Shown here: positions 33,423-37,772 of the stretch, piece by piece
Layout of the letters: every line of letters begins with the position of its first letter
Numbering within the stretch: the stretch's first letter is position 1
Source: Spirochaetes bacterium ADurb.Bin133
GTDB taxonomy: Bacteria > Spirochaetota > GWE2-31-10 > MWDO01
DNA length: 42,480 nucleotides
NCBI GenBank assembly: GCA_002070605.1
Contig: MWDO01000023.1
Coordinates: 1 to 42,480, forward strand
Reading direction: 5' to 3'
The notes under the pieces: generated by a model
Database searches by the model: none
What the model was told of the DNA's origin: nothing
Seen by the model: the letters and a program-made list of their open reading frames with translations, nothing else
Program-made: the position numbers and the translations under genes

Positions 33423-34268
33423 ATGAATCATATAAAATCTTTTAGTTCCTTAAATAGGACTAAAGCCCATAGAAAGGCTCTATATAGAAATATGACGACT
33501 TCGCTTTTAAAATATGGGAAAATTGAAACGACTGTAGTAAAAGCAAAAGAGCTTAAGAAATTTGCGGAAAAAATATTAACCAGAGCGAGAGTAAAAAATC
33601 TTCATAATATCAGACTAATAAGCAAAGTAATTCAGGAAAAAGATATTTTAAAAAAACTTTTTGACGAAATTGCTCCCAGATATGTCGGCAGGAACGGCGG
33701 ATACACGAGAATTATTAAGTTAAAAAAGAGAAAGGGCGACGGAGCCGATATGGCTTATATCGAACTGTTAACCGACGAGATACAAACGACAAAGAGAAAG
33801 AAGAGAAAAGATACGGGCGTCGGCAAATCGGTAAAATCGGATAAATCTGCGGATGTGAAAGATACGCAAAAGAGCGAAAGCGCCGTTAAATTAACGTCGC
33901 CTCAGTTTCAAATAAGCTCAAAAAATGATGAGGAATTTAAATATGAATTGAAAGACGCCGATAACAATACGTTGATCTCATGCGACGTTCAAAAAGATAA
34001 AACTGCCGTAACGGGATTGATCGAGTCTGTTAAAAAGTATGGCGCGGATGCAAAAACCGTTAATTTAGATAGCGACGAAGAGGTTAACGTAACCGGCGCT
34101 AAATACGAAATATATTCGGATAAAGACGGCGGCGTTAAATATAGATTGAAGTCGGAGAGCGGCGAGATAATAGCGGTTAGCTCGGTTTACAAAACTACGG
34201 AAGATTGCGTTCAAGCCATAGAAAAACTAAAGAGTATCGTAAAAACTGCGGAAGTTAATGAAAAATAG
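33423..34268 (+). CDS. rplQ: 50S ribosomal protein L17 fused to two DUF1508 (YegP-like) repeats
   Basis: Residues 1 to about 118 are a complete L17 core (LNRTKAHRKALYRNMTTSL, RNGGYTRIIKLKKRKGD, AYIELL). After a Lys/Asp-rich linker (about 120-156) come two similar units, about 159-213 and 226-275. The second reads YEIYSDKDGGVKYRLKSESG, then EIIAVSSVYKTTEDCVQAIE, a close match in pattern to DUF1508/YegP domains (a strand pair plus helix with an E-I-I-A-x-S core). The first (EFKYELKDADNN) is more diverged. Total 281 residues against roughly 115-180 in usual bacterial L17 proteins. The reading frame is continuous. The tail would sit on the 50S surface near the tunnel exit; its function is unknown. 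Confidence 0.9.
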   Translation: MNHIKSFSSLNRTKAHRKALYRNMTTSLLKYGKIETTVVKAKELKKFAEKILTRARVKNLHNIRLISKVIQEKDILKKLFDEIAPRYVGRNGGYTRIIKLKKRKGDGADMAYIELLTDEIQTTKRKKRKDTGVGKSVKSDKSADVKDTQKSESAVKLTSPQFQISSKNDEEFKYELKDADNNTLISCDVQKDKTAVTGLIESVKKYGADAKTVNLDSDEEVNVTGAKYEIYSDKDGGVKYRLKSESGEIIAVSSVYKTTEDCVQAIEKLKSIVKTAEVNEK

Positions 34269-34273
34269 ATAAA

Positions 34274-34903
34274 ATGCAAAGCAAAAGAAAAATGCTTCCA
34301 TCAAAAGGGAAGCATTTTTTATTTTTAACGTCGTCGATTATACATCTTATTATTATTGCGTCGATTATATTTATAAAAGAGCTAAGTTTTATTGTCGTTT
34401 ACGAGTTTATCTTTTATTTGGCTTTTAAAAATTTCAATGCTAAGCAATTTTTAAGAATACTTATAATTTTTTTCATTATTTTTATTTTAAATATTTTTGG
34501 CGCGGACGGTAAAATTATAAAAGAGTTTTGCGGATTTTATATAACGGATAAAGGCGTTCTCAACGGATTAGTAAGAATATCCGCCCTTTTTTCAACGGCG
34601 TTTTTTACGGTAAACATATTAAAGGAGAATAAAGCGCTGTTTTTTTCAAGTCTTAAAAATGAAAAAATTGCGTTGTCAATATCGTATTTTTATTATTTTT
34701 TTGAGCTGATACAAAATAAGTTTAGTATAAAATTGTTTTATCGGAAAATACTAAAATCTCTTCAATCGAAATATTATTCTCAATCTAATACTATATACGA
34801 AGTAAAAATTAAAACAAAATATTTTATATACAACGGCTTAATCAGCGCTATCGGCGTTGCGCTATTAATTTATAAAATAGTTATCGATATACGCAGCCGT
34901 TAA
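34274..34903 (+). CDS. Small multi-span membrane protein, possibly EcfT/CbiQ-like
   Basis: The ORF encodes 209 residues with likely membrane spans near 14-34, 36-51, 59-76, 97-115 and 184-204. The segment TDKGVLNGLVRISALFSTAFF loosely recalls the G-x-x-x-G-x-x-x-x-x-R pattern in T components of energy-coupling-factor transporters, but no ATPase or substrate-binding gene is near, and the match is weak. Its first codons (ATG at 34274, alternative at 34292) overlap the rplQ terminator hairpin, so its expression by read-through would be low. Its end overlaps the opposite-strand DUF115 gene by 39 bp. It is probably real given its consistent membrane character, but this is not certain. Confidence 0.55.
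   Translation: MQSKRKMLPSKGKHFLFLTSSIIHLIIIASIIFIKELSFIVVYEFIFYLAFKNFNAKQFLRILIIFFIIFILNIFGADGKIIKEFCGFYITDKGVLNGLVRISALFSTAFFTVNILKENKALFFSSLKNEKIALSISYFYYFFELIQNKFSIKLFYRKILKSLQSKYYSQSNTIYEVKIKTKYFIYNGLISAIGVALLIYKIVIDIRSR
34288..34326 (+). terminator. Terminator after rplQ, inside the next ORF; possibly bidirectional
   Basis: AAAAATGCTTCC (34288-34299) pairs perfectly with GGAAGCATTTTT (34308-34319) around an 8-base loop, followed by TTATTTTT-like bases. It begins 20 bases after the rplQ stop. On the minus strand the same stem is followed by TTTTTCTTTT, so it could also end the leftward DUF115 operon. Both candidate starts of the membrane-protein ORF lie at or just before this stem. Confidence 0.87.
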
Positions 34904-36349
34904 ATCTTGTATGTCAGTTTTAATATTCTTAGAAAGAATAAGAGGCAACATAGGGGTTATGTCTCTATTTATAAAATCATTTATTATATTTTTAAAATAT
35001 ATTTTCTCTATTTGACGGAATCTAAAAGGCAATATCTTCGCGTTAACGCTGTTTTTAGATAACAACTCTTCTCCGGAGATAAAAACAAAGTTTGTAAAAG
35101 GCGAAGCGGAAATGGTAAAAACTTTTTTAGAAATACGATATTCTGAAAAAGATTGTAAATAAGAATTTGTTTTCCAGTTATTTTTTTCTATAGTTGAAGC
35201 GTTTTTATACAATATTTTTGAATATAAGAGATCGGGGGATTTTATAAAATCTTGAGCGGTAATAAAAATATCGTTTAAGTAAGAGTTTTTTGAATACAAA
35301 TAATCGTCAAAAATCGCATAGTCTATGCCGACGGTAACAATATCAAATTCTTCAAAATATTTAGTAAAAAATTCGACGATCGCCATACCTATGTTGCGGG
35401 ATTGCGAAGATAAACTATATGTTTTCCACCCGGCTTTTTCAAAAATATTTTTGAAAGGGTGATCTGAAAAGAGTAAAGTATGCGTAAACGGAGCGCTAAG
35501 ATAAATCGGCGACGTAAAGCAAGAAAATACTCTAATTTTTGATTTTCTAAGAAAATGCATATTTGTAAAATTCTGACAATCAAAAGAGAAAATTGAGTCG
35601 GGAATTATCTTGTTTTTTAGCAAAATCAAAGCGGAAGTATCGGTTGCCGCTATATAAAACCTATCTCTAAAATCTCTTATAAAATCAAGATTTTGATCTA
35701 AAGAGTATCCGGCTCCGGTTATTAAAATAGTTTTATCCGAGATAGCAAGATCGTCAAAATTAAAGTAATTATCGTAGTATTTAACGACGTTTTTCATAAT
35801 ATTGCGGTGCCACAAATAACCAAATTTTTGTATTGTGTTTTTTTCAACAAGATAGTTATTAAAAACATCCGCTATAAGCCGCTTTATTCGAGCTATATCT
35901 TTGGTAAAATTATTATTAAAATATTGAGCCGATATAACGTTTATATGAGATTTATACTCGGTATGTATAACATTGGAAATTTCGGAAATATCTATTAAAA
36001 AAAGATTGTCCGTAAAATATAACGACAGATCGACGTTAGACAAAATGTTTTTGATCAAAGGATAGTTAAAAACTATCGAATACAATTTTGTCGTTTTTGA
36101 AATATTAAAGAGATGATATCCCGCTCCAAAACCTATATCGAAGGTTAGATACGAATCGGCAAGTTGAACGTTTTTTAATTGCTCGGACTCTTTAAAAGGA
36201 TAATATGAAGAGCATAGAGATACGTTATTAAAAAAAGGGACTTTGACTCCGTCTTTTGAAAGTTTATAAAACACGTCGACGTTTTCTGCGTTTTGTAGAA
36301 GATTAAATAGTTTTTTTGAAACATATCTGACGTTATTTGCTAAAATCAA
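34865..36349 (-). CDS. DUF115 (MptE/Maf-like) protein, last gene of the leftward operon
   Basis: The 494-residue protein has a Rossmann-like N-terminal segment DIGFGAGYHL (71-80) and a central DUF115 domain with TGAGYSLDQNLDFI (211-224), a DTSALILL helix and PDSIFSFD (250-257). DUF115 proteins include archaeal 6-hydroxymethylpterin diphosphokinase MptE and bacterial Maf flagellin glycosyltransferases; the length and N-terminal region fit the Maf group better. The start is TTG at 36349, overlapping the preceding gene by 17 bp with AAGAG upstream, so it is translationally coupled. It may transfer a nonulosonic acid or other sugar to flagellin or a surface protein; that is inference. No ATG lies near the N-terminus. 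Confidence 0.78.
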   Translation of the reverse strand: MILANNVRYVSKKLFNLLQNAENVDVFYKLSKDGVKVPFFNNVSLCSSYYPFKESEQLKNVQLADSYLTFDIGFGAGYHLFNISKTTKLYSIVFNYPLIKNILSNVDLSLYFTDNLFLIDISEISNVIHTEYKSHINVISAQYFNNNFTKDIARIKRLIADVFNNYLVEKNTIQKFGYLWHRNIMKNVVKYYDNYFNFDDLAISDKTILITGAGYSLDQNLDFIRDFRDRFYIAATDTSALILLKNKIIPDSIFSFDCQNFTNMHFLRKSKIRVFSCFTSPIYLSAPFTHTLLFSDHPFKNIFEKAGWKTYSLSSQSRNIGMAIVEFFTKYFEEFDIVTVGIDYAIFDDYLYSKNSYLNDIFITAQDFIKSPDLLYSKILYKNASTIEKNNWKTNSYLQSFSEYRISKKVFTISASPFTNFVFISGEELLSKNSVNAKILPFRFRQIEKIYFKNIINDFINRDITPMLPLILSKNIKTDIQDLTAAYIDNYFIN

Positions 36350-37772
36350 TTGAAGCGCTCTTAATCTTTTTTAAAAATATTTTATGCATATCCGAATCGT
36401 CGGAATAGTATAAATAATCTTTTAACATATTTTTATCGTTATATAAAATACTATTTAGTTTAATTATTAATTCTTGATCGATAGTTTTTTGTTTTATTTC
36501 TAAAAGATCGCGTAGGTCGGATTTGTTTTCAAACAGATCAAAATACTCCGCGCCGACTTTTTTGATTTTATCGGACAAAGGGTTGTAACATTTGTTAGAA
36601 GTTAATATTTCAAGATCGTATTCTCTATCGATAAAGTGTTCGTAGTAAATTTTTAAAGAGATGTCGGCGTAAAAAGATTTATCCCCTACGGAGTAATAAA
36701 ATTTATCTTTTTGAGCGGAAATTCGCTTGAGATGAAAATCTATCGATTTGAAATAATCGGCTTGAGAGTAGTATTCTTTTTCAAAATAGCCTTCGTTGAT
36801 ATGACTTCTGTTTTTATAATATGAAAAATCAAGCCCGACGATTATGGAGGTATCAAAGCCTAGCTGAGGAAGAATGTTCAAAAGATTAAAAATTACGCTT
36901 CCTTCCGGAGGAGAGGAAACGGAGTTTGCGTCGTCAAAAATAAATTTATCCGGAAAATTTTGGTAGTTAAAAAAGATAAATTTATAGTTGTTTAATGAAA
37001 CTATCGTCGGTTGGATAGAAAGCGGGGCGATAGCTAAAATATTTTTTTTAAATTTCGCCATATGATAATACGAAGGATAACCCGGATCTGTAACTATCGC
37101 CAAATCCGGCGTAATCCCCGACGCCTCCAAAAAAGGGAGAGCCGAAGGGAGAGCGCATAGGTAAGCTTTTTTCATCGCGGATTTGATAAAATCAATATTA
37201 TCTATCAAACTATAGCCCGACGCGATAATTAACGCCGGGTTAGTCTTTTTAGCGGATTTGCATAGAATATTAAATTTATTATTAGCGTAAATATTTCTTA
37301 AAAAATTTCGCGTTTCGACAAATCCAAAATGCTTCTCAGTTTTATTAGAAAGCGTAATTTTATTCAAAAGATTTTTTATCTGTTTTAAATATTGTAAAAA
37401 AATCGGAGCGTTTGTCTCTATAAAAGGAAGCCAAATGAAAAGTTCTATTTGAACCGGATCGATATTGTTTTGTAAGATGCGCGCTTCAAGTTCGTTTAAC
37501 GAGCGGCATCTTAAAATTTTTGAAGAGTCCGAAGCGTCGTCAAAAATTATCGGCTCAAAGGATAGTATAGTTTGATACCCTTTTTTTAACAGGGCTGCGT
37601 TAACGAAGTCGGCGCCGCAAAACGTAAGCGCAAATTTACCGGATTTACGCTCAGATTTTTCAATAAAAAGCGCCGCTTCTTGGTAAGGATCGTAATTAGA
37701 ATATAAGTATTTATCGGCGAATTTGTACGTAATAAAACCTTTTCTACCGGTTACTTTTAGGTAGTCAGTCAT
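36333..37772 (-). CDS. DUF115 (MptE/Maf-like) protein, second paralogue
   Basis: The 479-residue protein has the same core as its neighbour: ALIIASGYSLIDNIDF (180-195), SALPFLEASGITPDLAIVTD (210-229), and a later conserved block with FDTSIIVGLDFSYYKNRSH. Here the second Gly of the nucleotide-loop motif is Ser (ASGYSL against GAGYSL). The two proteins are clearly diverged, so they probably act on different substrates or as a heteromer. It starts with ATG overlapping the preceding gene's stop by 8 bp (ATGACTGA), a strong sign of coupling. Confidence 0.78.
   Translation of the reverse strand: MTDYLKVTGRKGFITYKFADKYLYSNYDPYQEAALFIEKSERKSGKFALTFCGADFVNAALLKKGYQTILSFEPIIFDDASDSSKILRCRSLNELEARILQNNIDPVQIELFIWLPFIETNAPIFLQYLKQIKNLLNKITLSNKTEKHFGFVETRNFLRNIYANNKFNILCKSAKKTNPALIIASGYSLIDNIDFIKSAMKKAYLCALPSALPFLEASGITPDLAIVTDPGYPSYYHMAKFKKNILAIAPLSIQPTIVSLNNYKFIFFNYQNFPDKFIFDDANSVSSPPEGSVIFNLLNILPQLGFDTSIIVGLDFSYYKNRSHINEGYFEKEYYSQADYFKSIDFHLKRISAQKDKFYYSVGDKSFYADISLKIYYEHFIDREYDLEILTSNKCYNPLSDKIKKVGAEYFDLFENKSDLRDLLEIKQKTIDQELIIKLNSILYNDKNMLKDYLYYSDDSDMHKIFLKKIKSASIDFSK

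Follow-up and report, generated by a model that had tools for sequence, protein, structure and literature searches.

The ordinary bacterial ribosomal protein bL17 (PF01196, TIGR00059) is encoded as a single copy in the alpha operon after rpoA, and its core is followed by a charged disordered tail or by none. The eukaryotic 'L17' is a different protein, uL22 (PMC3130931), and the 'universal' ribosomal protein of the first-pass annotation should be read as 'bacterial'. An L17 with an added domain has already been catalogued in NCBIfam (NF051448, '50S ribosomal protein L17, sunset domain variant'), as has a DUF1508-like end on tryptophan--tRNA ligase (NF008923/PRK12284). DUF1508 itself belongs to the widespread, functionally unknown YegP/UPF0339 fold, represented by 2k8e, 2k49, 3bid, and 6q2z.

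The rplQ gene described here was identified in a window of 42,480 nucleotides (contig MWDO01000023.1) from Spirochaetes bacterium ADurb.Bin133 (genome G000). It resembles ordinary bL17 in its core, its place in the operon, and its single copy, whereas its frame encodes 281 aa, compared with 116-237 aa in the other L17s examined, and its C-terminal part is a folded module. NF051448 likewise joins L17 to an extra domain, but the domain is a different one, and the protein scored 132.8 bits over residues 13-166 only, against a cut-off of 280 for this SUNSET model. The tail has the fold of the YegP/UPF0339/DUF1508 proteins, in tandem, but differs from them in being fused to a ribosomal protein, in its acidic charge, in the degeneration of its first unit, and in the partial loss of the family signature. 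PRK12284 is likewise a protein of translation whose C-terminal region is DUF1508-like, but it is a tRNA synthetase and not a ribosomal protein, and is linked to the fusion by the domain only. No description of an L17-DUF1508 fusion was found in the open-licence literature, including that on bL17 extensions and the SUNSET domain, in agreement with the first-pass annotation, to which none was known.

Domain composition of the fused rplQ

The rplQ ORF (33423-34268, + strand) is an unbroken frame that closes the segment rpsM-rpsK-rpsD-rpoA-rplQ, and it is the sole L17 match of the source genome; both the place after rpoA and the single copy are as expected for bL17. The encoded protein consists of a bacterial L17, a disordered linker of about 40 residues, and a tandem DUF1508/YegP module (Table 1). 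The first-pass annotation had described the same in-frame succession of L17, linker, and two YegP-like units, which is borne out, in a spirochaete host, by the continuous frame and by profile, fold, and alignment evidence. The interval that it gave, 33780-34268, correctly runs from the linker across the two units to the end of the stop codon.

Table 1. Features of the fused rplQ and its 3' flank, in positions of the window
Feature	Position	Strand	Evidence
bL17 core, rplQ, residues 1-116	33423..33770	+	PF01196, TIGR00059, pLDDT ~95, position after rpoA
Flexible linker, basic, Lys-rich, residues 117-160	33771..33902	+	Low pLDDT, pI 10.0
DUF1508/YegP-like unit 1, degenerate, residues 161-212	33903..34058	+	Predicted fold, own-YegP alignment
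Inter-unit linker, 'long' type, residues 213-224	34059..34094	+	GAKYE end resembles L092/L093
DUF1508/YegP-like unit 2, residues 225-280	34095..34262	+	PF07411, own HMM, 3bid/2k7i by sequence
Stop codon, fused rplQ	34266..34268	+	
Probable intrinsic terminator directly 3' of rplQ	34287..34320	+	13-bp stem + T-run

The core matched Ribosomal_L17 (PF01196) over residues 20-115 (E 7.1e-35; 120.2 bits, cut-off 27) and TIGR00059 with 139.9 bits (curated cut-off 70). For DUF1508 (PF07411), the whole protein scored 52 bits (E 6.6e-14), over the gathering score of 22; the match was carried by unit 2, with its best stretch at residues 233-280. With our own HMM, built from spirochaete YegPs, unit 2 scored 44.1 bits and unit 1 scored 8.2 bits (i-E 0.88), which is not significant alone. 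Aligned to the genome's own YegP, unit 1 reached a score of 63, against 47 for the best of 500 shuffles (z 7.6). The solved relatives of the tail by sequence were the UPF0339 proteins 3bid, 2k7i, and 2k8e, and the score for the HVO_2922 equivalog NF041908 was below its cut-off (29.5 and 90 bits, respectively).

The fold of the tail was predicted with AlphaFold2 from an alignment with 17 homologues, giving two beta-beta-beta-alpha units with a pLDDT of 90. Comparison of this model with the PDB identified the YegP fold, with E. coli YegP 2k8e as the best match (E 1.4e-8, TM 0.74, probability 1.00), followed by 2k49. A full-length model, in whose alignment the only tail homologue was the second fusion described below, without any stand-alone YegP, repeated the element pattern of the tail and contained a well-folded L17 core (pLDDT ~95). 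In this model, the pLDDT was below 50 over residues 138-158 of the linker, and the pTM of 0.46 indicated no fixed arrangement of tail and core. The disordered linker and the separately folded tail suggest that the tail would behave as a tethered separate module. The tail is tandem but uneven: fold prediction and alignment support the pair claimed at first pass, whereas the degenerate unit 1 is not called by a profile on its own.

The probable terminator immediately 3' of rplQ suggests that the operon ends past the tail; four terminator-like sites were found, against 1.2 expected in shuffles. Additionally, a hydrophobic ORF of 209 aa (34274-34903, + strand), without a Pfam match, begins 6 bases past the rplQ stop. 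The probable terminator overlaps its first codons, and its true start may therefore be downstream. Genes similar to this membrane-protein-like ORF were also found 3' of rplQ in two related genomes (G002 and G003).

Distribution, coding constraint, and probable origin of the tail

The search for further fusions covered 393 Spirochaetota genomes and, from a second phylum, 200 genomes (the phylum of the Rhodoferax record, G399). The full-length query was matched in 377 of the 393 Spirochaetota genomes, and DUF1508 was present in 76. Among the long DUF1508-bearing open frames examined, L17 fusions were identified only in the source genome and in G002 (JAFYAI010000144.1, Spirochaetales bacterium RGIG6909, sheep rumen), an independent assembly from another genus of the same family. 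Among the best matches listed for the 200 genomes of the second phylum, no stop-free L17 match reached the DUF1508 part. The long L17 frame of another genome (G030) proved to be an ordinary L17. The L17 of the family's third genus (G003) is 162 aa long, ends in a charged tail, and lacks the fusion, and no L17 was found in the 86% complete assembly of G001, which belongs to the same genus as the source genome. From these results, the fusion is confined, within the genomes searched, to two genera of one family of uncultured spirochaetes. In a tree of rpoA and the L17 core, the two fusion-bearing genomes were grouped (bootstrap 87), apart from G003 and the rest; given this sister placement and the shared architecture, one gain in the common ancestor of the two genera suffices.

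The two fused proteins are 51% identical over residues 1-273, and the tails alone match with an E-value of 5e-19. In G002, too, the fused gene is the sole L17 match, and the gene order is the same, including the downstream membrane-protein-like gene. LDSDE and TGAKYE are common to the inter-unit linker region of both proteins, and in both genera the frame is kept and the stop codon lies near the same place. The same fusion in a second genus rules out an assembly chimera or frameshift artefact, and we regard this explanation as extremely improbable: the window is one contig of a draft assembly of 103 contigs, but an independent assembly shows the same architecture and gene order, and the frame shows coding constraint. 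Identity at codon positions 1, 2, and 3 was 0.49, 0.62, and 0.26 in the tail and 0.71, 0.87, and 0.35 in the core, a pattern that marks the tail as translated and under purifying selection. Amino acid identity was 48% for unit 2, 23% for unit 1, and 28% for the linker; on this comparison, unit 2 is more constrained than unit 1, while two fused sequences are too few for selection on particular residues to be mapped. Unit 1 of G002 was undetectable by alignment to YegP against shuffles.

Stand-alone tandem YegPs were of two types that differ in the length of the inter-unit linker, short or long, and both fused tails are of the long-linker type. The best-scoring stand-alone relatives of both tails were the long-linker YegPs L092/L093 of another spirochaete family. 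The YegP encoded elsewhere in the source genome is an intact tandem with a short linker that scored below the long-linker YegPs, which makes it the less likely source. The tail therefore likely derives from a long-linker tandem yegP joined to the 3' end of rplQ, a call based on short alignments; a mixed L17 and YegP alignment misplaced the YegPs and was left unused.

Possible roles of the tail

The fused tails are acidic (pI 4.9 in the source genome and 4.5 in G002), whereas 15 of 16 stand-alone tandem YegPs have a pI of 8-9.7; the direction of this change presumes a basic ancestral module. Of the conserved YegP positions, 13 of 26 are kept in unit 2 and 4 of 17 in unit 1, and the missing residues include the N-G and N-G-I-x-S motifs. 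The units had been called well conserved in pattern at first pass, which these counts bear out only in part. An acidic module with much of the conserved YegP surface lost would probably not bind rRNA and has probably not kept the ancestral YegP activity.

We propose that the L17 core would anchor the YegP-like module to every 50S subunit and that the linker would keep both folded units at the solvent side. Tethered in this way, the tail would most likely act as a contact domain for another protein close to the surface of the ribosome; candidate partners are processing factors, targeting factors, and basic proteins. As a whole, this reading, a single fusion from a long-linker yegP giving a tethered protein-contact module on the solvent side of the 50S subunit, has in our judgment somewhat less than an even chance of being correct. 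The fast evolution of unit 1 (23% identity) counts against it, as this also fits weak constraint.

The main rival is a near-neutral accretion, in which additions are tolerated at the C-terminal end of L17 and the YegP module would stay folded and soluble without serving a specific task. Across phyla, L17 tails come in very different lengths, often with a KE- or KA-rich composition, unit 1 is eroded as well as fast-evolving, and the related genus G003 lacks the module, all of which are consistent with accretion. However, unit 2 and its coding pattern have been kept across two genera, the frame and the stop position persist, and the fold is still confidently predicted, and we consider accretion rather unlikely. 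It is improbable that the tail retains the activity of YegP itself, which the fusion would concentrate on ribosomes, with the DUF1508-bearing tRNA synthetase as a second case of such targeting. The tail does match the TrpRS model PRK12284 in its C-terminal part (E 8e-6), and the YegP fold is predicted to be kept, but about half of the conserved positions of unit 2 and most of those of unit 1 are lost, the charge is opposite, and the genome carries an intact tandem YegP at another locus. Post-translational cleavage of the linker, which would leave a normal L17 and a separate YegP-like protein, is very improbable. A basic linker that is predicted to be disordered would be accessible to proteases, but no cleavage signal was identified in it, and cleavage would be an odd route to a second YegP in a genome that already has one.

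A role in factor recruitment or nascent-chain handling had been suggested at first pass, from the position of L17 by the exit tunnel. bL17 itself is generally placed on the outer rim, close to uL22/bL32. The proteins listed around the ribosome exit are uL22, uL23, uL24, and uL29, without bL17 (PMC5071890), which weakens the argument. It is doubtful, with a small chance of being correct, that this lineage has made a YegP-like pair permanent on every 50S subunit and that the pair brings in a specific factor or changes the handling of nascent chains by the exit rim; if true, it would be the first defined translation role for YegP-fold domains. A tail that stays on the ribosome would amount to a permanent ribosomal domain specific to this lineage, and would offer a rare natural hint at the role of the YegP/DUF1508 fold. 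Together, the fusion and the DUF1508-bearing TrpRS model point towards translation. The fusion also shows that folded domains can be added at the C-terminal end of L17.

Other DUF1508 architectures and neighbouring genes

The other spirochaete DUF1508 frames examined that exceed about 210 aa were not L17 fusions; they were YegP with ankyrin-like repeats, YegP with a Lys/Ala tail, or over-long frames. A YegP/DUF1508 unit followed by ankyrin-like repeats was found at six loci (L091, L094, L095, L096, L187, and L188) in the spirochaete genomes G169, G111, G046, G106, G101, and G126. A tandem YegP extended at its C-terminus by a long, histone-H1-like tail rich in Lys/Ala was found at three loci (L086, L087, and L088, in G293, G384, and G282), and G293 and G384 also carry an ordinary tandem YegP. 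Additionally, four DUF1508 matches were identified in one open frame of 530 aa in Bacillales UBA3206 (G403:C4:11328-12002; L178, L180).

Elsewhere in the window, two adjacent proteins with MptE-like domains (PF01973) are encoded on the - strand (34865-37772). Such domains occur in flagellin-glycosylation (Maf) proteins.
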